Source of the DNA: an uncultured Clostridia bacterium
GTDB lineage: Bacteria > Bacillota > Clostridia > Oscillospirales > Acutalibacteraceae
Direction: 5' to 3'
NCBI GenBank assembly: GCA_945876745.1
Contig: CAMCPL010000001.1
Coordinates: 310,001-374,000 of the forward strand
DNA: 64,000 nucleotides
Part shown: piece after piece, positions 50,722-64,000 of the stretch
How positions within the stretch are numbered: position 1 is the stretch's first letter
How the letters are laid out: every line of letters begins with the position of its first letter
Notes under the pieces: generated by a model
Seen by the model: only the letters and a program-made list of their open reading frames with translations
What the model was told of the DNA's origin: nothing
Databases searched by the model: none
Made by a program: the position numbers and the translations under genes

Positions 50722-52437
50722 TTATTGCAAGGAAATGCGGTATGCCTTTACGCCGTGAGGCTTTATTTCAGCACGAATACTGTCCTTATGGAACACCTCG
50801 TCGGTCCACAAATCCTTGATTTGTGCGCTGTTTGTACGGGTGAGATTGAGATACTTGTCCTCCTTCAAGTCGTTGAGCTCGTATTCAACGGTCTTGGGAG
50901 ACTTGCTCTTGTTAAAGAAGCAAATTGCAACGTCGCCGTTTTCAAGCGGTCTTGCCATAATATCAACACTGCCGCGCTTTGCGATAATCTTTGCCGGCTT
51001 AACGAGAGAGTCTTGGTCGATTGCGATAAGCTCGCTGTTTGTTACGATATTGAGAATAACCTGACTCTTTTTTGAACCGTCTGTCAGAGTGCGAATATCA
51101 TTTCCCAAAACAAGCGGAGCCGCCATCATACACCATAAAGTAAAGTGAGATTTATTCTCGTCAACGCTCAAATTACCGTTGCCGACCTCAAGCATATCGG
51201 GGTCGTTGATATGACCGGGAGAAGCGTATTTATAAAGAGCGATTGTCTTCTTGTAGATATACAGAATACTAAACCATTTCGGCATAATATCGTGGGTTGT
51301 TCGCCACATATTGCCTGCCTTTGCGCCCCATTTCCAAGGTGCGCCCGTGCCCCATTCACAAATTGAATATGTTATCGGCTTAACAGGTGTGTTGTTGTAA
51401 ACTGCCCAAAGATTTGCACCGTTTTCGAGCGCCTTGCCCATTCTGCGGTACTGGATATATTCGGAGTCAGCCTTTGTTACAACAGGGTTTTGAAGAGTGA
51501 TGTTGTTTTCTCCCGCAAGCAGTCTGACAGTCAGCTGAACTCTTGCGTCAGCGGTAAAGGCTACTGACGGTGGGAAGAAAACCTCGTATATTTCGCCGTT
51601 TACATCAAGCTGCATATACTGTTTTTTCTTGCTTGAAAGCTTCTTGAAGTGGATGGTGAAAACGTATTCGCCCGATTGCTCAAGGTTAACAACAAACGAA
51701 GCCTTGCCGGCGTTGTGATTGAGAAAGGCAATGCCCTTTTTTGTAGGCAAGTCCTTAACGGTAACTGCCATTGCTCTGCCTGTGTACTTCGCCTTATCGG
51801 GAGTCAGTCGCAGACATTCACGCTCGCCCTTTGAGCTTATGGAAATGTATTCGATAATCGGCGTTTTGCCGATGATGTTCTCGTGGTGGCAAAAATCGTA
51901 TTTGAAAAATTCAACGCCCCAAGAAGCAAAGGTCTTTGCATCGAGCACTTCGTTGCCGAGAGACGCAGGCAAATCCTCGCAGGTCAGCGTGCCGTTTGAC
52001 GAATAAATTCCGAGCTTCAAGCCCATTGAGTTAACGACATTTGTGAGTGCCGGAATACCGCTTGGAAATGTTTCCAAATCGCCCTGTAACATTCCGTTTT
52101 CATCACGCATTGAGCTTTGCCAGCAGTCGTCAAGATTGACATATTTATAGCCTGCATCGGCAAGTCCCGTGCTGACCATAGCCCTCGCAACGTCAACAAT
52201 TGTGTCTTCGTCGATATGATTGCGCATAGTGTTCCAGCTTGACCAACCCATAATAGGCGTTTTGCTTCCGCCGATATAGTCCTCGTCGTGCTCATAATCA
52301 ATAGTAGTCTGTCTTAGCTTAATTGCCTTTAATGCACAAAGCGGACAGTTGCCGTCTGCCTTTGTCGAGAAAAACCATGTCAAAAATCCGACAACGGCAA
52401 GTCCGATTATGACAAGCAGAATAATCAAAAAAATCAT
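50722..52437 (-). CDS. GH27 alpha-galactosidase with internal CBM-like insertion
   Basis: MGWSSWNTMRNHIDEDTI, GYKYVNLDDCW, SWGVEFFKYDFCHH; about 120-residue beta-rich insertion; N-terminal TM anchor. Confidence 0.88.
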   Translation of the reverse strand: MIFLIILLVIIGLAVVGFLTWFFSTKADGNCPLCALKAIKLRQTTIDYEHDEDYIGGSKTPIMGWSSWNTMRNHIDEDTIVDVARAMVSTGLADAGYKYVNLDDCWQSSMRDENGMLQGDLETFPSGIPALTNVVNSMGLKLGIYSSNGTLTCEDLPASLGNEVLDAKTFASWGVEFFKYDFCHHENIIGKTPIIEYISISSKGERECLRLTPDKAKYTGRAMAVTVKDLPTKKGIAFLNHNAGKASFVVNLEQSGEYVFTIHFKKLSSKKKQYMQLDVNGEIYEVFFPPSVAFTADARVQLTVRLLAGENNITLQNPVVTKADSEYIQYRRMGKALENGANLWAVYNNTPVKPITYSICEWGTGAPWKWGAKAGNMWRTTHDIMPKWFSILYIYKKTIALYKYASPGHINDPDMLEVGNGNLSVDENKSHFTLWCMMAAPLVLGNDIRTLTDGSKKSQVILNIVTNSELIAIDQDSLVKPAKIIAKRGSVDIMARPLENGDVAICFFNKSKSPKTVEYELNDLKEDKYLNLTRTNSAQIKDLWTDEVFHKDSIRAEIKPHGVKAYRISLQ

Positions 52438-54128: not shown

Positions 54129-54845
54129 TTATATTATATTATTTTCATTAAGGAAATTATATGCGCTTTCCAAAATGTTTTTGTCATTTTCAAATTTCAA
54201 CAAATTCATAGCCTTATCATACGTCAGCCAAATGAAATCCTCAATTTCCTCACGCTGAATAACCGTCGAGGTGTCCGAGGTTGTGCCGACAAAAATAGTA
54301 ACCATTTTGTCAATCTTATCTCTGATTTTGTATTTTGAAACACAGTTGAAGCCGTCGATGATATTAATGTGAAGTCCTGTTTCCTCAAGTACTTCACGCA
54401 AGGCTGTTTGCTCAAGCGTTTCGCCCTGTTCAATATGACCCTTCGGAAAGCCCCAATGAGCCGAGCGTCTGTTTTTTATAAGCAGGTATTTTACCTCGCC
54501 CTTGATGTCTCTGAAAACAACAGCGCCGCAACTGCTCTCGTAAAGACATTCCAAACGGTAAGAGGGGAAATCCCTCTCAACATTAATGTATTGCTTGATA
54601 TCGTTGATTATGAAGCGTGTGCTTTTTGGGGCAACTATCCAAATAAAGTGATTGTTCTTTCGGTCGCTTAATATGGCGATAACTCTGCCGTCGAAGTTCT
54701 TCACAGGATGATGTATGCCCATAATAAAGGCGTCCTGATTTTCTTCGTTATATACGCTTCCGAAATTCAATGGATAGGTGAAGCCCGCTTCGTCAGTCGA
54801 GCCGATAGGTTTTTCTATTCGGACTCTAACATATTTTCCGAGCAT
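54129..54845 (-). CDS. Inorganic-pyrophosphatase-like domain fused to Nudix hydrolase
   Basis: N-terminal VRIEKPIGSTDEAGFTYPLNFGSVYNEENQDAFIMGI; Nudix box GHIEQGETLEQTALREVLEETGLHI. Confidence 0.82.
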   Translation of the reverse strand: MLGKYVRVRIEKPIGSTDEAGFTYPLNFGSVYNEENQDAFIMGIHHPVKNFDGRVIAILSDRKNNHFIWIVAPKSTRFIINDIKQYINVERDFPSYRLECLYESSCGAVVFRDIKGEVKYLLIKNRRSAHWGFPKGHIEQGETLEQTALREVLEETGLHINIIDGFNCVSKYKIRDKIDKMVTIFVGTTSDTSTVIQREEIEDFIWLTYDKAMNLLKFENDKNILESAYNFLNENNII

Positions 54846-54948
54846 TATTTCACCACCGAGTAAAAGAGTATATATGAAAATATTATACTATTTTTTATTA
54901 TAATATACAATACCAAAAAGCAATATTTTCTCATTTATAATAAAAGAA

Positions 54949-54986
54949 AAATCCTCTTCCTCAGGAAGCCCCAAGGAAGAGGATTT
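54949..54986 (-). terminator. Intrinsic terminator of the giant-protein gene
   Basis: AAATCCTCTTCC...GGAAGAGGATTT with T run on minus strand. Confidence 0.75.
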
Positions 54987-55023
54987 GTTATTTGTTTAAG
55001 ACTTCTTAACAAATTGTAGGTTA

Positions 55024-58000
55024 TTAGCCTGCAAGAGTTTGAAGAAGGTCAACCAAGTTTGCGATTACTGTATCGGCGTCGCCCTGAAGCATACCGAGTA
55101 CCTGGTCAACAACACCGCTTACAGTGTCGTTTGCACCACCGAGTAAGCCGCCTACGAGACCAACGATTGCGTTGTAGTTGTCTTTGTAATTGATTGTGTT
55201 AATCAAGAAACGAAGAACTGCAATCAAGGTTTCGTCCTGATCGGATTGAACCATAATTCTTTCGCCGTTGATAGCAGCCTGTGATGTTGTGCGAATTACA
55301 GTACCGTGGCTTGCAAGAGTGAACCAGTCAATTTCCGGAAGAACAATTCCGAGTGACTTGCCGCCAATCTTGATTGTGCTGAGGATACCGTTAAGGAGAG
55401 ATACAACATTGTCAGCCGAAATCAGCGGTGCAAGTGTTGCCTTAAGATTGTAAATGTCGAGATTTACATTTGTCTTAATGCCAATCTTTGCAAGAAGTGA
55501 GTTCAGGTTAAAGCCGAGAACCTTCAATACGCTGTTAACATTTACTATCGGCTTTAAAGCGTCGAGTAATGCGGAAACAGGAGTGAGAAGATTGTCGATA
55601 ATCTGAAGCAAACCGTCGTTTGCAAAGAAGAGTGAAAGGTTCGGAAGAATGTCTGCAAGCATCTGGACAGGTGCGTAGAGAACGTCTTCTACCTTGTCAA
55701 GAATAGGATTGAGAATATCAATGAGAATAGCGTCGTATTCCTTGCTCATATCCATTCTGTAATCGTACTGCGTCTTGATGTTGTAGCAACCGAATGCTTC
55801 AAGAAGCGGAACGATGAATGATGTGTAGCCGTCGGAGCCCTGAACCTTAACAACGTTGAAGAGGTTGAGTCTTGAGTTGTTGAGGATTACGTCAAGTACG
55901 CCGTAAAGCGGACGGAGAGCAGCAGCGATAGCGTGAACGAATGAATCTCTGTCTGTTACGCCCCAAGACAAGCTTGACTTGTTTACCTTCTTCCAGCTGC
56001 CTGCGCTCTTAATCTTGCTTGCAACTGAAGAATACTGCTTACCGTAAGACTTGTCTGTAAGGAGATTTGCAACATTTGTTGTGCTGAAATCAATACCGGT
56101 CTTTGCAAGAAGGCTTGAAAGCGAGCCCATATCACCGAGGCTTACGCCCTCGATTGCGCCGTAAAGACCAACTGCGATTGTGCTTACGATTTCATCGGTA
56201 TAAACCATACCGCCGAGAAGACCGTTTAATCCGCCCTTGTCAACAAGAAGACCGTTTACAAGACCGTCAAGCATCGGAGCGAGCTTTCTGCAGAAGTCTT
56301 CGTCCATTTCGCCGAAGGAGAAGTCATTTTCCTTTGTCTTGAAGTTTGAATAGTCGAAGAATGAGTCTTCGGCAACGTTAACCGAGCCTGTCTGTGCAAG
56401 GAGATAGAATACTGCACGTACGATATCGTCCTTTGATGCGGCTCTGATTGATGAGAATACACAGTCAAGAATGTTCTTAATTGTTGCGTTCTTCTTGATA
56501 GCGTCGATTCCCTGAAGAGCGTTATTAATGTATGATGCGTTTCTGATAAGAACGTCTGCAACGTATCTCAATACTGCAACGAGAACCTCGCCCTTGTTTG
56601 CAACAACTCTCTTTGTTGTGTACTGACCGTTTGAATTCTTTGCCTTGCTTGCTACGGTTTCGATTGTACCGTGAGAAGCAATCTCTGCAAATGTGAAATC
56701 AGGAATCTTGATGTCAATATTCTTCGAAGCAAGAATTGACTTAACAAGCGGAAGAATGATGTCCTGAATATTGCAGGTCGAAAGATCCGAAAGGTTCATT
56801 GTGAGCTTAACATTGATGCCCATAGCGTCGGTGATGATGTCGCCGAGAGGCTTGCCTGCAAGTGTTACGATAAGCTCGTCAATGTTGATACCAACGCTGT
56901 TGAGCTTGCCGACGATACCGTCCTGTGAAGTAATCGGAGCAAGAAGATTGCCGATTGCCTGAGCCAAACCGTTGCTGTCAATGAAGTATGCAATGTTCGG
57001 AAGAACTGATGTAAGTGTTGTAGCAGGTGCTTCGATAATATCGTTTACAAGATTGAATACAGGAGTAAGTACGTTGATGAGAAGGTTATCGGAAGCCTTC
57101 TTGTAGTCAGCAACATATTCATTATATGTCTTGATACCGTCGCACATAAATGCTTCGAGAATCGGAATGATTGCACTCTCGTAGCCGTTTGTTCCCATCT
57201 CGAAAAGATGTGAGCCGTCGAAGATTGCACCGAGGTCGATTGAGATGTTTGTATCCTCGCCTGCCTGTGTAAGAACAAGGTTGAATACGCCGCCGCTCAT
57301 ACCGATTGCGATGCTTCTCTGAGTATCCTCTTCGTAGAATACAGGAAGTGAGAAATCAAGACTGTTGATAATCTTGAGTACAGGAGCCTTGTCGTATGTA
57401 TCTGCGCCTACAAGGAACATTGAAAGAATGTCGTTGATAGGACGTAATACAGCGGCAATTGCACTGATGAAGCCCTGCTGAGCTTTAGCCGAGCCATCCT
57501 TGAAGCCCCAGTTAAGAGTAGTAACGTTATTCCAGCTTGATACACTCTTGAGTGTGCTTGCAGCAGATGAATATGTAGCGCCGTAGCGTGAATCCATAAG
57601 GTATGAAGCAATGCCCTTTGTGGAAAGGTCAAGGTCGGAATCAGCCAAAATACCTGCAAGGTCAACGCCTTCAATTCCGTTGAATGCGTCTTCGATTGCA
57701 CCGTAAAGACCCTTTGCAATGGTTGTTACCATAGCGTTTGTGTAAAGGTTGTCGTTTACGAGCTGCTCAAGACTGTCAACCTTAAGTACGCCGAAGCTCT
57801 TGAGAAGTGGGAAGAGATTTAGAACAAGCTCGTCGAGGTTGCTAACTGCTGTTTCAGCCTCGCTTGCTGTGATGTTGTTCGGATATTTGAAGGAATTTGT
57901 AATCTTGTTTGAATATTCCTTGAAGTTCCAGAACACCTCGGTTGTGCCCGACAATGAGCCGCCGATGCCGTTTACAACAGCCAAAATGCCGTCAACCCAG

Positions 58001-60882
58001 TTGCCGATTAATGCGCTGAGATACTGATATACCTTTGCAGGTGCTTCGTTCGGATTAACCTTGCTTGTATCTGCGCAGTCCTTGATGTTTTGGATATCTC
58101 TGTTAACCTGATGTGTATAATCGCGTGTAGAATCGCCGTCCTTGAACGTTCTTGTTTCGTCGAAGAACTTGCCTGCCGGAACAGCCGTCCAGTCGGAGGT
58201 GATATTGTACTTCTTTGCGAATGACTTGAAGATAGAATCTACAAGATAAGGAAGAGATACGGAAAGGTTGTTGAGTCCTCTCTGAACGGTTTCAACTTCG
58301 CTGTCCGGATTTTCTCTTGCATATCTCGGGTCGTCCTTATGCTGTGCAAGATAATCGTCAACTGCGTCGCCTGCGAAATCAACAACATTGTAGATAACCT
58401 CGCTTATCATTGCAGCAACTTCAGGACTTAAAGCATTTACTTCGTTGCCTTTTTCATCTTTCTTTTTGATGTTTGCAATTGCGTCTGCAATGTTAAGACC
58501 GCAAAGTGCCTTGTCGGCAACATAAATACCTGTTATTTTGAGAACTTTTGCAAAGCCTTCGTCTTCAACTGTATACTTGTCAGCTTCGGTAGTCTGTGCT
58601 GCATTGTAGCTGTCGATATATTCCTGATATGTAGGAACGATAGCGTGAGCTGCTTCGTATCCGCCGTCCTTTGAAAGGATTGTAAGGAGTGCAGGAAGAA
58701 GTGTGTTCAGGTCGAAGCTGAGTGTTGAAATACCTACATCGGTGTTTCCGTTCTTAAGTGCCAATGCACCCAAAAGTGTGTCGGGACTGCTGATGAGGAA
58801 GTTAAGTGACTCGTATTTTGCATCGCCCTCTTGGTTGAGAAGCATCGGAAGCAATACTTCGTCAACAAGCGCTACCAAAACAGGAACTAACTTGAGAACT
58901 GTTTCAATAGGAGCGTTGTAGAGATTGAGCCAAAGGTCATTGAGAACGCCCGAACCGTCAAGTGCATAAAGCGTTACCTTTGTCTCAAGAAGACCTTCGA
59001 TAATCGGGTTAACGATACCGCCGATTTCACCTTCTTCGTCGAACAACATTCCTACTGTGTCGTTGAGAAGATTGTTAACAACGATAACTGCGTATTCGTC
59101 AGGAATAGCATATTCGCTGTATGCATAGCTGTAATCAGCAGTTGCAGGAGCAATAGCGTTGTTGAACTTATTTACTTCCATCAAATCGAAACGAGGTGAT
59201 GAAACGATAGATGCACTTGGAATGGTATAGCCTGAATTGATTTCTGATTTAGCAATGATACCTGAAATAATACTGTTAATGAAATCAATTAACGGCATAT
59301 TTGTACCGTTATTTCTTGCGCAGGCAAGATCATGGAAGAATGTGCTCTTGTATTGCTTTGCTTCGTTTGTTCCTGTTGCGATTTCGTTACAGAAAATTGA
59401 AAAGTCGCTTCTTTCTGCATCGTACAGGTAGCTTAACAACGAAACAACATAAGGGCTCAATGTACATTCATCGGAATTAATATAGTTATACATTAAATCT
59501 GCATTACCGTACCAATTGCCTTCTTTTGCAGCTTTATGCAATGTATCAATGTCGGTATTGCTGATCTTTGCATCATTGATTGCCTGTGTAGCTTCGTTTA
59601 TGTCTGCATATGTGCCGTTTGTTACAAGGACTGCCTTGTTGATTGCTTCATATGAATTTGAACAAAAAGCGTCCAATGTCATACCGTTGAAGTTAACCTC
59701 AACACCATCAAACAAGCTTTCATAAACCTTTTCTGCAACGATACCGGGAACAAGCTCATTGCTTGAATTAATTGCACCGAGAACAGTTGCATAGTTGTCG
59801 AGAGTAAGAGCGGTACCGTTATACTTTAACGGAGTGCCGCCGTCGTTAGCAAGCTTGATGTACTGAAGCGCCTGAACGAATGAAAGACCGTTAGTGTATT
59901 CGTCAACACCGTTGTTGTTGTAAAGATAGCTTGTTGTGCTGATGAAATAGTAGAAAGCGGCCTCTGCAGCGTTAGTTGCTCTGAGGTTTACGCCCAAATT
60001 TTTGAGAGCGTCGTTACAAATATCTACGCCGTAGCCGTACGCAGTCTTGTTTCCGCTTGCGTCAGTTAACGGAAGATCCTTGAGTTTACCGTAAGAACCC
60101 TCAAGCTCGCCTGCCTGTGAAGCGGTAAGGTAGAGTGAATCGTCGCCTCTTGTGCTTGCTGCATATGCAAAAAGCTCACCGATGTATTCACTTGAGTCCT
60201 TGAATGAGGCTTCATCGTAAACAATATTGTTTTCGTATTCGTTGTTTGCAGCATTAACACGAGTATCATATGCTTTCTCGGCAGCAGAGCAAATGTTCAG
60301 AAGAACATTAAGCTTTTCGAGAGTGGTTTTGCAATACTCTGCAAATTCGGGATTTTCTGTGTCGTTTTTGTTGTTCTCGCACAATGTATACAGAGCATAG
60401 AATGAAAGACCGTCTTTCTCTGTGTTGTCAAGATAAGAGTAGTAATTGTAGTACTTATCTTTCCAAGTGTCTTCGGTTATGCCTGTGATTGATGAGTGAC
60501 TTGTGAGGAAAGACTGTGCGTCTGTTCCGCCGGAGGCAAGTAAATCCATAAGTATCGGAGTTACCGCTGCGATAACATCCTTGATTTTAGCAGTCTTTAC
60601 TTTTTCGGCGTCCATTCCGATCAAGTCGCCGAGAGTCTGCTTTGAGATAACTTCTCCGGTTACTTCATCAACCGTTTCTTTTACAGTAATTCCGAGCAAA
60701 GACGGAATTACGAAGTTGAGAATACTTTCAACTTTTTTGTAAGCTTCGGCATTCTCTTGGCTGCTATACGTACTCGCTGAACCGCCGTCTGCTGCAAATG
60801 CGGTAAAGCCGACAGAGCACGAAGTAACAACCATTACTACAGCTAAGAAGAAGCTGAGTAATTTCTTGCTTGTTCTTTTCAT
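55024..60882 (-). CDS. Giant secreted protein of unknown function with tandem about 400-aa repeats
   Basis: About 1950 aa; signal peptide MKRTSKKLLSFFLAVVMVVTSCSVGFTAFAADG; repeated LYGAIE...SYG..YSS.AS..KS..SW / IAAALRP / VPLLEAFGC..IKT..DY / ASHGT blocks. Confidence 0.85.
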   Translation of the reverse strand: MKRTSKKLLSFFLAVVMVVTSCSVGFTAFAADGGSASTYSSQENAEAYKKVESILNFVIPSLLGITVKETVDEVTGEVISKQTLGDLIGMDAEKVKTAKIKDVIAAVTPILMDLLASGGTDAQSFLTSHSSITGITEDTWKDKYYNYYSYLDNTEKDGLSFYALYTLCENNKNDTENPEFAEYCKTTLEKLNVLLNICSAAEKAYDTRVNAANNEYENNIVYDEASFKDSSEYIGELFAYAASTRGDDSLYLTASQAGELEGSYGKLKDLPLTDASGNKTAYGYGVDICNDALKNLGVNLRATNAAEAAFYYFISTTSYLYNNNGVDEYTNGLSFVQALQYIKLANDGGTPLKYNGTALTLDNYATVLGAINSSNELVPGIVAEKVYESLFDGVEVNFNGMTLDAFCSNSYEAINKAVLVTNGTYADINEATQAINDAKISNTDIDTLHKAAKEGNWYGNADLMYNYINSDECTLSPYVVSLLSYLYDAERSDFSIFCNEIATGTNEAKQYKSTFFHDLACARNNGTNMPLIDFINSIISGIIAKSEINSGYTIPSASIVSSPRFDLMEVNKFNNAIAPATADYSYAYSEYAIPDEYAVIVVNNLLNDTVGMLFDEEGEIGGIVNPIIEGLLETKVTLYALDGSGVLNDLWLNLYNAPIETVLKLVPVLVALVDEVLLPMLLNQEGDAKYESLNFLISSPDTLLGALALKNGNTDVGISTLSFDLNTLLPALLTILSKDGGYEAAHAIVPTYQEYIDSYNAAQTTEADKYTVEDEGFAKVLKITGIYVADKALCGLNIADAIANIKKKDEKGNEVNALSPEVAAMISEVIYNVVDFAGDAVDDYLAQHKDDPRYARENPDSEVETVQRGLNNLSVSLPYLVDSIFKSFAKKYNITSDWTAVPAGKFFDETRTFKDGDSTRDYTHQVNRDIQNIKDCADTSKVNPNEAPAKVYQYLSALIGNWVDGILAVVNGIGGSLSGTTEVFWNFKEYSNKITNSFKYPNNITASEAETAVSNLDELVLNLFPLLKSFGVLKVDSLEQLVNDNLYTNAMVTTIAKGLYGAIEDAFNGIEGVDLAGILADSDLDLSTKGIASYLMDSRYGATYSSAASTLKSVSSWNNVTTLNWGFKDGSAKAQQGFISAIAAVLRPINDILSMFLVGADTYDKAPVLKIINSLDFSLPVFYEEDTQRSIAIGMSGGVFNLVLTQAGEDTNISIDLGAIFDGSHLFEMGTNGYESAIIPILEAFMCDGIKTYNEYVADYKKASDNLLINVLTPVFNLVNDIIEAPATTLTSVLPNIAYFIDSNGLAQAIGNLLAPITSQDGIVGKLNSVGINIDELIVTLAGKPLGDIITDAMGINVKLTMNLSDLSTCNIQDIILPLVKSILASKNIDIKIPDFTFAEIASHGTIETVASKAKNSNGQYTTKRVVANKGEVLVAVLRYVADVLIRNASYINNALQGIDAIKKNATIKNILDCVFSSIRAASKDDIVRAVFYLLAQTGSVNVAEDSFFDYSNFKTKENDFSFGEMDEDFCRKLAPMLDGLVNGLLVDKGGLNGLLGGMVYTDEIVSTIAVGLYGAIEGVSLGDMGSLSSLLAKTGIDFSTTNVANLLTDKSYGKQYSSVASKIKSAGSWKKVNKSSLSWGVTDRDSFVHAIAAALRPLYGVLDVILNNSRLNLFNVVKVQGSDGYTSFIVPLLEAFGCYNIKTQYDYRMDMSKEYDAILIDILNPILDKVEDVLYAPVQMLADILPNLSLFFANDGLLQIIDNLLTPVSALLDALKPIVNVNSVLKVLGFNLNSLLAKIGIKTNVNLDIYNLKATLAPLISADNVVSLLNGILSTIKIGGKSLGIVLPEIDWFTLASHGTVIRTTSQAAINGERIMVQSDQDETLIAVLRFLINTINYKDNYNAIVGLVGGLLGGANDTVSGVVDQVLGMLQGDADTVIANLVDLLQTLAG

Positions 60883-61421
60883 AATCATCTCTCTCCTTTT
60901 CTTAATGATTTACGGTTAAGGGGGTAGTTTTTGCCCCGCCGTATTTGCAATAGGGCAAAGTATGCCCTTTGCAATAAGAACAATGTCCAAGTTAATTTAT
61001 ATCAAAAATACTTTATAATGTCAACATTTTTTACTAATTTTATCAATTTTTTTGTATAAAATATAAACATTATAACCGAAAACACGCTCGCTGCGGTTAA
61101 AATCCGACGAAAAAACCGCAGTATTTTCGATACAAAATAAGTCGTAATTCGGCGAAAAAGAGCTTGCACAACAGTGAAAATATGCTTACAAAATCGGTGA
61201 ATTGTAACACGATATTTTTTTACTGAAATGTAAAAACTTTTTTAACAAATTATGAACTTTCATTGCTATGATACAACATTTGTTAATAAAAATCAATACC
61301 TTTTTCAAAAAATCACCTAAAATTCTGCCTGCTTTTTCGGGTGGATTTGACAGACCTGTTTCGGTTAGGTTAACTGTTTGTTAAATATGTATTAATACTT
61401 AAAAGATTTGTTCATTATTTC

Positions 61422-61450
61422 TTGACATATTATAACAATTGTGGTTAAAT
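61422..61450 (+). promoter_or_regulatory. Promoter of right-end giant secreted protein gene
   Basis: TTGACA-17-TTAAAT, about 160 nt before the start codon. Confidence 0.6.
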
Positions 61451-61610
61451 AGTACTGCGTGGAGTGTCCCGTTGAAAAAAGTATTCATTATTTTGTCGGG
61501 TATTTCTACCCCTCTTTCTGCTGCGAAATATTGCAGTGAGGTCAGAGAAGGCGACAGACGGATAATCCTCGGAGCACTATCGTAAAAATTTATGGAGGAA
61601 ATTTAAGAAA

Positions 61611-64000
61611 GTGAAAAAATCTAAAATCTTTGCACGCAAGATAATTTCTGTCATCCTTGCAGCTTTGATGGCGGCTTCGACCTTCACAGGCGTTCTTACA
61701 GCCTATGCAAAGTCGACAGACGACAATCATGACTCCAAGCTGGCAGCAAACTTTATGGCATGGGCAGAGACGACCGATAACCAGACAGCCGAAGCTCTTC
61801 TTGACTGGCTTGACGATACGCTTCAAAAAGCAGGTATCGCTCCTATCAAGTTCTACGGCAACTACGTTGTAGTTAAAATCGACCTTAATATCTACATCGA
61901 CAGCGTTGATGGTTTATTGGACGCTGTAAGACAGATTAACGGCTTGCTTGACTCATACGGCGGACTTCTCGGCGGTGATATAAAGTACATCAACCTCAGT
62001 CCTGTCGCGAGTCTTAACTCAATTACAGCCGGCGACGGTATCGTTTCTCAGTGTAACAGGTCATATCGTGCAGTAAATGACGCAAAGGACATCATAATGG
62101 CCCTTGCAAAAGCTATTTATTGGAACTCAAACGACAACACGGCAAGTGGACATACAAACAATAACATTATCGGCCAGTTCCTCAAGGGCAAGCTTGATCT
62201 TGGCCCGATTTTGAGTGGTATTTTTGATGTATACGGCTTGATCGGTAATATGCTCGGTATGTGGTCCGGCTATCAGTCAAACCTTGTTTACAACCTTGTT
62301 GCAAACATCATTTTGACAATGACAGGCTGGTACACAGACGCTGAAATTGCTGATTATCAAAGCTATCTTCAGGGCAAAGGCGGTTCAACATGGAACTTCG
62401 ACCAGCAGCTCTTCGAGAAGCTTTGCGACGCATTCCTTAACAAGATTGCACTTAACATCACATATTCACATAAGAGAGTAGTCGACCCCGATACGGGCAA
62501 GGTTACTTACGAGACGACAGACTCTTCGGAGGCTCGCTTTACCGAAATTAAGGCTTGGCTTGAAAGTCACAGCTTGGATATAACCGACGACAATGTTGCA
62601 ACGGCATCTACAGCTCTCGGCTATGATCCTAACCTCAGATATGAGCCGACAACCGGTAAGATCTATCTCTTCAGATACGGTAACGAAAAGCTCACTCTTT
62701 CAACCGATACAAAGGTTTATGACGCAGTTAAAGAAGCGTTGAGACTTGTTTGGAATTCCGCATTGGTACCGACCATCAGCATCTTGCGTGTTAACAACAA
62801 TATGGATTGGTATGACGGTCACGGCGGAAACTTCGATAATCAGTTCTACTATTGGTTACAGTCCGAGGGCTTAATCAATGAAAGCGACTGGACAGCAGCA
62901 TACACTATGGAAAATCTTGATGCATACTGCCAAGCAAAGTACGTTGAGTACGGCTACAGCTATGCCGAGGACTTCAAGGCTGCTATCAGAAAGACATTCG
63001 ATTACGACAGAAATATTGTTGACGAGCCTACATATACTTGGGCAGACGTTGCAGAAAACAACAATGTTGTTACTGCCGAGGGCAGAACAGAAAGCATACT
63101 TTTCGGAAAGCTTAGATACAGCCCGATTGCTGACAAGATCTTCGATATGCAGACAGGTCCTATCAACCTCTACTTTATGCAGACAGGCTTTGATAACCTT
63201 GAAGCATTTATGGATAAGTTCTTCACCACAAACAGCTACACCAACCTTATCGCTGCAGTAAACGATCTTTTGGTTGCCGCTGTTTATGACTTCTTCCCGA
63301 ATTCAGATAATATCGGTTTGGGCGACGGCAAGAACACTGTTACAACAGACATTTCCCGTCCTGTTCTTACAACAACCTCAACAACAAATAACCTTACAAT
63401 TGCACAGACTATTTCCGGCAACCTTATGAAGATGCTTGAGTATGTCGCAAATGTTACAGACGAAAACATTTTGAGTGCTTTCTATCATTCAAACGGTATT
63501 TCGGACAAAACACAAAGCAATAACCTCAATGAAGTAAATATTGAGGGCGCAGTTGTTCCTCTCATTGTTGCTTGCATTCAGCTCATCGCTGATACAAAGT
63601 CAATCCATCAGCTTGACTGGTCTTATGCAAAGGATGCAGAGGGTGTTGCATTCGTAGCACTCAGAGAGTATCTCTCATACTCGCTTCCTAAAAAGGATTA
63701 CGATCAGCTTGTTTCAACAGCTAACGGTTACTATGAGGCTGTTAAGGATGTTGACGGCGACGGTAAGTATAACCTCTATCTTGACGTTATTCTTCCGATG
63801 TGCCGTGACGCTGTAGGATATCTTCTTAACTCGGTTGTTCCTTGCCGTGACAAGAACGGTAACATCTGGAACGTATACGAGTCCAATCCTGCAACAGACA
63901 AGACAACAATCTTCGATATTCTCAACTCCGTAATTTGCTACTATGCTTCTATGGATGAGTTCGCAGAGCCATCATGGAACACAACAGCAAGCAAGACATA
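61611..64000 (+). CDS. Giant secreted protein, partial (runs off right edge)
   Basis: GTG start after GGAGG; VKKSKIFARKIISVILAALMAASTFTGVLTAYAKS signal peptide, open frame of about 800 codons to the window edge; missing from the ORF track because no stop is reached. Confidence 0.85.
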   Translation, partial: MKKSKIFARKIISVILAALMAASTFTGVLTAYAKSTDDNHDSKLAANFMAWAETTDNQTAEALLDWLDDTLQKAGIAPIKFYGNYVVVKIDLNIYIDSVDGLLDAVRQINGLLDSYGGLLGGDIKYINLSPVASLNSITAGDGIVSQCNRSYRAVNDAKDIIMALAKAIYWNSNDNTASGHTNNNIIGQFLKGKLDLGPILSGIFDVYGLIGNMLGMWSGYQSNLVYNLVANIILTMTGWYTDAEIADYQSYLQGKGGSTWNFDQQLFEKLCDAFLNKIALNITYSHKRVVDPDTGKVTYETTDSSEARFTEIKAWLESHSLDITDDNVATASTALGYDPNLRYEPTTGKIYLFRYGNEKLTLSTDTKVYDAVKEALRLVWNSALVPTISILRVNNNMDWYDGHGGNFDNQFYYWLQSEGLINESDWTAAYTMENLDAYCQAKYVEYGYSYAEDFKAAIRKTFDYDRNIVDEPTYTWADVAENNNVVTAEGRTESILFGKLRYSPIADKIFDMQTGPINLYFMQTGFDNLEAFMDKFFTTNSYTNLIAAVNDLLVAAVYDFFPNSDNIGLGDGKNTVTTDISRPVLTTTSTTNNLTIAQTISGNLMKMLEYVANVTDENILSAFYHSNGISDKTQSNNLNEVNIEGAVVPLIVACIQLIADTKSIHQLDWSYAKDAEGVAFVALREYLSYSLPKKDYDQLVSTANGYYEAVKDVDGDGKYNLYLDVILPMCRDAVGYLLNSVVPCRDKNGNIWNVYESNPATDKTTIFDILNSVICYYASMDEFAEPSWNTTASKT

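Follow-up and report, generated by a model that had tools for sequence, protein, structure and literature searches.

Type II X-module-dockerins have a tethering role (PMC5141474). Cohesin-dockerin pairs also occur in non-cellulosic extracellular assemblies of gut Firmicutes, as described in the available passages of papers on the Ruminococcus bromii amylosome and the Limousia mucinolysome (PMC9112005, PMC12997984); these passages do not concern Eubacterium coprostanoligenes, and that species is not mentioned in a 2024 survey of cellulosome-displaying bacteria. The open-access literature yielded no paper pairing 'Eubacterium coprostanoligenes' with 'dockerin', nor 'dockerin' with 'concerted evolution', which is weak evidence of novelty.

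Here we describe a locus at the right end of a 64,000-nucleotide stretch of DNA (the window, G000:C1:310001-374000) from a 1.93-Mb assembly, 98.6% complete, of a gut bacterium related to E. coprostanoligenes. Two divergent genes for giant secreted proteins of families not described before, A and B, share one control region, and B is followed beyond the window by a smaller gene, C. We hold, at about even confidence, that A, B and C form a co-regulated and co-conserved secreted locus of non-catalytic giants in which B and C dock via a species-specific dockerin. An initial annotation, made from the letters of the window, had proposed an extracellular scaffold or adhesin-like system; the results support the scaffold-like part of this.

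The divergent locus and its X-module-dockerins

Gene A (55024-60888, minus strand) is an ATG open reading frame (ORF) for a secreted protein of 1954 amino acids (aa) that ends ...VDLLQTLAG. Gene B (61611..64000, plus strand) starts at a GTG, and its ORF runs past the right edge of the window, which leaves the first 796 aa visible (ORF part 61611-63998); rightward extension brings it to its full length of 1995 aa (L002:7612-13599). On the same strand follow C (351 aa) and then gene D (759 aa). The two secreted giants of the initial annotation, flanking a control region of about 720 bp, are thus borne out: the region measures 722 bp, and by eye both N-termini resemble signal peptides, at about residues 1-33 of A (MIMKRTSKKLLSFFLAVVMVVTSCSVGFTAFA; 60790..60888, minus strand) and about residues 1-33 of B (MKKSKIFARKIISVILAALMAASTFTGVLTAYA; 61611..61709, plus strand).

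Orthologues of A and B are present across the genus, and in 40/40 loci that hold both genes the two are divergent. Because of this genus-wide presence and constant arrangement, the pairing is not a chance one. The annotation had tied its proposal to the kinship and co-conservation of the two genes. Co-conservation stands, B having been lost secondarily at least once (in genome G075); kinship does not. We tried A and B as one family and rejected it, profile-profile similarity by hhalign being limited to the signal-peptide region (A residues 4-62 against B 5-72), and B against the repeated module of A described below reaching a best P of 0.13.

The larger locus predicted to lie rightward exists. 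A has no LPxTG or dockerin end, as had been noted, while the C-terminal ∼140 residues of B, outside the window, are by homology an X-module-dockerin. A profile of this region from 26 species matches PDB entry 2b59_B (CipA) at E 9e-14 over positions 13-159 of 162, 3kcp_A at 3.9e-13 and 4u3s_B at 4.4e-11, so that it aligns full-length with the solved dyads, as a type II X-module-dockerin requires. In the window species the first calcium loop of the B dockerin, DFNNDGKINATD, is canonical, and many orthologues keep both loops; the domain scores 21.3 bits against Dockerin_1 (cut-off 22.9), or 23.3 with neighbours in frame. C also ends in an X-module-dockerin, with two repeats (Dockerin_1 24.1 bits against 22.9; profile to 2b59_B 1.6e-8). 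Its N-terminal domain is cohesin-like: PF00963 matches at E<=1 in 5 of 28 orthologues, once above the cut-off (L126, 30.0 against 24.1 bits).

Gene D (L002:14833-17112), which lies 3′ of C and is kept in several relatives, encodes a secreted protein. It was considered as a cohesin scaffold and rejected, with only 10.6 bits to PF00963 and a profile that finds no cohesin in the PDB. No carbohydrate-active enzyme bearing a dockerin was found at this locus. Elsewhere, the B/C type of dockerin is carried in genome G001 by a NAGPA-type glycosidase-domain protein and in G012 by a CotH-domain protein. Some 16-24 kb beyond the left end of the window, the same genome encodes a BspA-type leucine-rich repeat (LRR_5) protein of 2383 aa (L087:1274-8422), whose end is an X-module-like domain and a dockerin of a second class, unlike those of B and C.

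Dockerin matching within and between species

B and C dockerins were compared in the 14 genomes where both C-termini are complete. Identity between them is 0.73 within genomes and 0.32 between genomes, and B dockerins of different genomes are also only 0.32 identical to one another. The best match to each B dockerin is the genome's own C in 14/14, and the observed sum was reached by 0/5000 permutations, a figure that is not a clean probability because the species are related. Proteins on other contigs carry the matching class too, with 0.97 and 0.90 identity to B in G001, 0.70 in G007 and 0.57 in G012; other large proteins of these three genomes carry the second class, at 0.07-0.33 identity to B. 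The cohesin-like domain of C correlates with the dockerin when B residues 401-800 are allowed for (partial r 0.38, 0/2000), against 0.15-0.18 for regions of A and 0.11 for another region of B; linkage confounds this correlation, since within gene C the domain is encoded near the dockerin.

The within-genome match might instead come from neutral gene conversion of neighbouring genes, and would then say nothing of a shared partner. We count this as possible, though doubtful. In several genomes the dockerin does show fewer synonymous differences than the X-module (8/55 against 31/60 in G001, 10/49 against 27/53 in G002). In G007 and G012, however, many codons differ while protein identity is still 57-74%, copies on other contigs included; moreover the boundary tends to coincide with the junction of X-module and dockerin, and the second dockerin class is untouched in the same genomes. 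Since the pairs vary from few synonymous differences to many, gene conversion is plausible, and so is selection for sameness.

A number of findings weigh against the reading of the locus as one co-conserved docking system. The few synonymous differences of several dockerin pairs point to gene conversion, which could homogenise them without any function. B-C dockerin identity is only 0.50 in the window species (and 0.46 in E. coprostanoligenes), and there the second calcium loop of the B dockerin is degenerate. The window species' own copy of C has no PF00963 match, and the profile of the C N-terminal domain finds no cohesin in the PDB. In the window genome no cohesin exceeds the Pfam cut-off, the best PF00963 match being gene D at 10.6 bits; apart from this one sub-cut-off match, no multi-cohesin scaffoldin was seen there. 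In G075, whose assembly has three contigs, A stands next to its usual left neighbours, but B is missing from its place next to A (and is unmatched elsewhere in G075), so that B appears to have been lost secondarily at least once. Finally, A has no dockerin, cohesin or anchor, and because of this it is tied to B and C by location alone.

Some of these points would suit a reading in which A and B act independently, as adhesins or as proteins of the surface coat, and the dockerin-like tail of B and C is either a cap stabilised by calcium or a generic tag for retention, and no plug for a cohesin: the want of an above-cut-off cohesin in the genome, the degenerate second loop in the window species, and also the same type of tail on the BspA-type protein. 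We think this unlikely. The tail matches over its full length structures of X-module-dockerins solved with, or as, anchoring-type dockerins; a cohesin-like domain is encoded in the adjoining gene; and a generic tag does not predict tails that are alike within genomes but not between them.

Control region, leader RNA and the bodies of A and B

The divergent control region common to A and B (60889..61610) contains blocks conserved between species. By eye, it holds a probable A promoter (TTGACA-17-TATAAA; 60996..61024, minus strand) and a probable B promoter (TTGACA-17-TTAAAT; 61422..61450, plus strand), both conserved in a seven-species alignment and both under the criterion of the promoter scan. 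Midway between them, at about 61229-61320, lies an AT-rich block (TGTAAA...TTAACAAATT...) conserved in the seven aligned species, a candidate site for a shared regulator.

The leader of B contains a structured RNA element (61514..61551, plus strand), with helices P1 (61514-61518/61547-61551) and P2 (61520-61524/61533-61537) and an invariant GGTCAGA (61540-61546). This motif is found in 40/40 leaders, each from a different species, partly by construction, as the leaders were located by it; the covariation of the helices is independent of that search. Covariation was run on two clade alignments with hand-set structures, and reached 0.362 in clade 1, compared with 0.159 ± 0.026 when shuffled and at most 0.140 when slid, and 0.479 in clade 2, compared with 0.248 ± 0.029 and at most 0.157. 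Because the structures were drawn from the same sequences, it is these controls and not the raw pairing that carry the claim. When all 40 leaders were aligned together, no consensus structure emerged, because the two clades are misaligned at the P2 hairpin, and the minimum-free-energy fold of the B leader is not unusual (z -1.25). The RNA model has one strong match in its own genome, at 63.6 bits, the next scoring 16.1, and Rfam 15 gave no match to the element at E<=1 on the plus strand of 54800-64000.

The helical repeat suspected in A is real, consisting of two tandem modules of ∼470-520 aa, mostly helical, recognised both by a module hidden Markov model (HMM) and in an AlphaFold2 model. Module 1 spans about residues 967-1484 (56437..57990, minus strand; 517 bits), and module 2, residues 1485-1954, closes the protein (55027..56436, minus strand; 487 bits). 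No family is assigned to the N-terminal region (about residues 34-966; 57991..60789, minus strand), whose only resemblance to the module in a profile comparison is a weak local match at residues 621-678, with 37% probability. A has no match in Pfam and only sub-cut-off matches in NCBIfam, and the module profile has none among PDB sequences. The AlphaFold2 model of the tandem (residues 961-1954) is confident, with a mean predicted local distance difference test (pLDDT) score of 85.2 and a predicted template modelling (pTM) score of 0.76; Foldseek with it found nothing at E<=0.001 in the PDB or among viral models, which is not proof of a new fold.

The module profile counts two copies in A; most orthologues have three, and L115, L116, L117, L121 and L122 have five, the C-terminus of A and its orthologues falling always 0-3 residues past the last copy. 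Elsewhere in the family, ORFs of 8,008 aa (G050), 8,730 aa (G018) and 9,406 aa (G082) (loci L069-L074) consist largely of the module, with about 14-18 copies, an approximate count because these giants were read in two pieces. Those of G050 and G018 have a C-terminal hydrophobic segment followed by charged residues, by eye a likely membrane anchor, that A does not have. In both, an ORF of 333-356 aa with no clear Pfam match lies downstream and overlaps the giant. The module matched in 68 of 79 other genomes of the same genus, in 4 of 10 sampled genera of the family outside it, in one additional genome, belonging to a different family, among 297 sampled from the order, and in its own genome only among 398 sampled from the phylum; it is taxonomically restricted.

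Neither the visible part of B nor its body matches Pfam or NCBIfam, and the body has no significant match in the PDB. A confident AlphaFold model of residues 37-1175 (pLDDT 85.5, pTM 0.79) is mostly helical and then a beta-sandwich, with weak Ig/MSP-like PDB matches (best E 3.5e-3). It seems improbable to us that either A or B belongs to an unrecognised enzyme family with a gut polymer as substrate. Many polar residues of the B body are invariant across 42 species (e.g. D228, D303, E609, H630, E650 and D697, numbered in the modelled segment), and the matching dockerin class does occur on the NAGPA-type and CotH proteins of G001 and G012. The initial annotation had recognised no catalytic motif, however, and no catalytic family emerged from Pfam or NCBIfam, nor any fold match from the PDB, while the A module has a single invariant column, a proline.

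Least probable of all is that the A modules bind lipids or sterols, which would fit relatives of the cholesterol-reducing E. coprostanoligenes and modules that are apolar for a secreted protein (mean hydropathy +0.16 over 139 modules and +0.33 in A module 2, against -0.44 to -0.03 in non-membrane-like control ORFs of the window), but the excess is modest and could also come from compact leucine-rich helical repeats, there is no match to a lipid-binding family or fold, and cholesterol reduction is not known from more than a single species in this genus.

To the left of A are genes for a Nudix protein, a small-multidrug-export protein, a nucleotidyltransferase and an alpha-galactosidase. In the last (50722-52437, minus strand), whose N-terminus is hydrophobic, the Melibiase_2 match is in two parts, separated by a CBM35-like segment. 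In E. coprostanoligenes ATCC 51222 (genome G005, placed in the genus of the window genome by the genome search) the left neighbours of A are in identical order (L068). A phage-family search returned only weak matches to known-phage families.

Proposed mechanism and comparison with known systems

Secretion signals, architecture, the repeat, the docking module (by homology), the conserved arrangement and the covarying leader are shown, the secretion signals from sequence; a mechanism built from them might run as follows. The shared divergent control region would drive both A and B-C, the RNA element in the B leader probably adjusting B-C expression. The dockerins of B and C would attach to an extracellular partner of cohesin type, as primary scaffoldins tether to anchoring scaffoldins, with one specificity per species common to both. 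A would be a non-catalytic co-expressed partner, whose modules, variable in copy number, may serve as an extended array for binding or spacing.

A bolder proposal, which we offer tentatively, is that of a genus-specific extracellular assembly. Non-catalytic giants of new fold would be docked by a species-specific dockerin code, uniform on several genes of a species and changing fast between species in step with C's cohesin-like domain; control of the docked components would fall to a dedicated leader RNA. Such a locus would link an abundant gut lineage, to which the cholesterol-reducing E. coprostanoligenes belongs, to a system of cohesin-dockerin type whose main bearers are not enzymes. Its roughly 40 species with matched dockerins would make a natural series for testing how docking specificity changes and yet stays coherent, and the A module, of which proteins of 8,000-9,400 aa hold up to about 14-18 copies, would add a folded unit with no significant match in the PDB. 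The whole locus is present in one cultured strain that is not a pathogen, E. coprostanoligenes ATCC 51222, and therefore each claim is testable.

Among described systems, the amylosome and mucinolysome differ in that their dockerin proteins are starch- or mucin-active, whereas the main dockerin carriers of this locus lack any known catalytic domain. The BspA-type protein L087 is, like B, a giant secreted protein ending in an X-module-like domain and a dockerin, but its LRR_5 body and its second-class dockerin do not match B or C. C resembles the single-cohesin adaptor scaffoldins in having one cohesin-like domain and a dockerin, although in one orthologue only, and not in the window species' copy, does that cohesin rise above the cut-off. 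As no multi-cohesin scaffoldin was found and the cognate cohesin is not established, we do not file the locus as a cellulosome, though it would work like scaffoldin anchoring. There is a likeness, too, to the type II X-module-dockerin of Acetivibrio (Clostridium) thermocellum CipA/ScaA and other scaffoldins (PDB 2b59, 3kcp, 5g5d, 4u3s, 4wi0). B differs from CipA/ScaA in having no Pfam-recognised cohesins or carbohydrate-binding module, a body of undescribed helical fold and, in the window species, a degenerate second loop; like them, it is a large secreted protein whose very C-terminus is an X-module followed by a dockerin.

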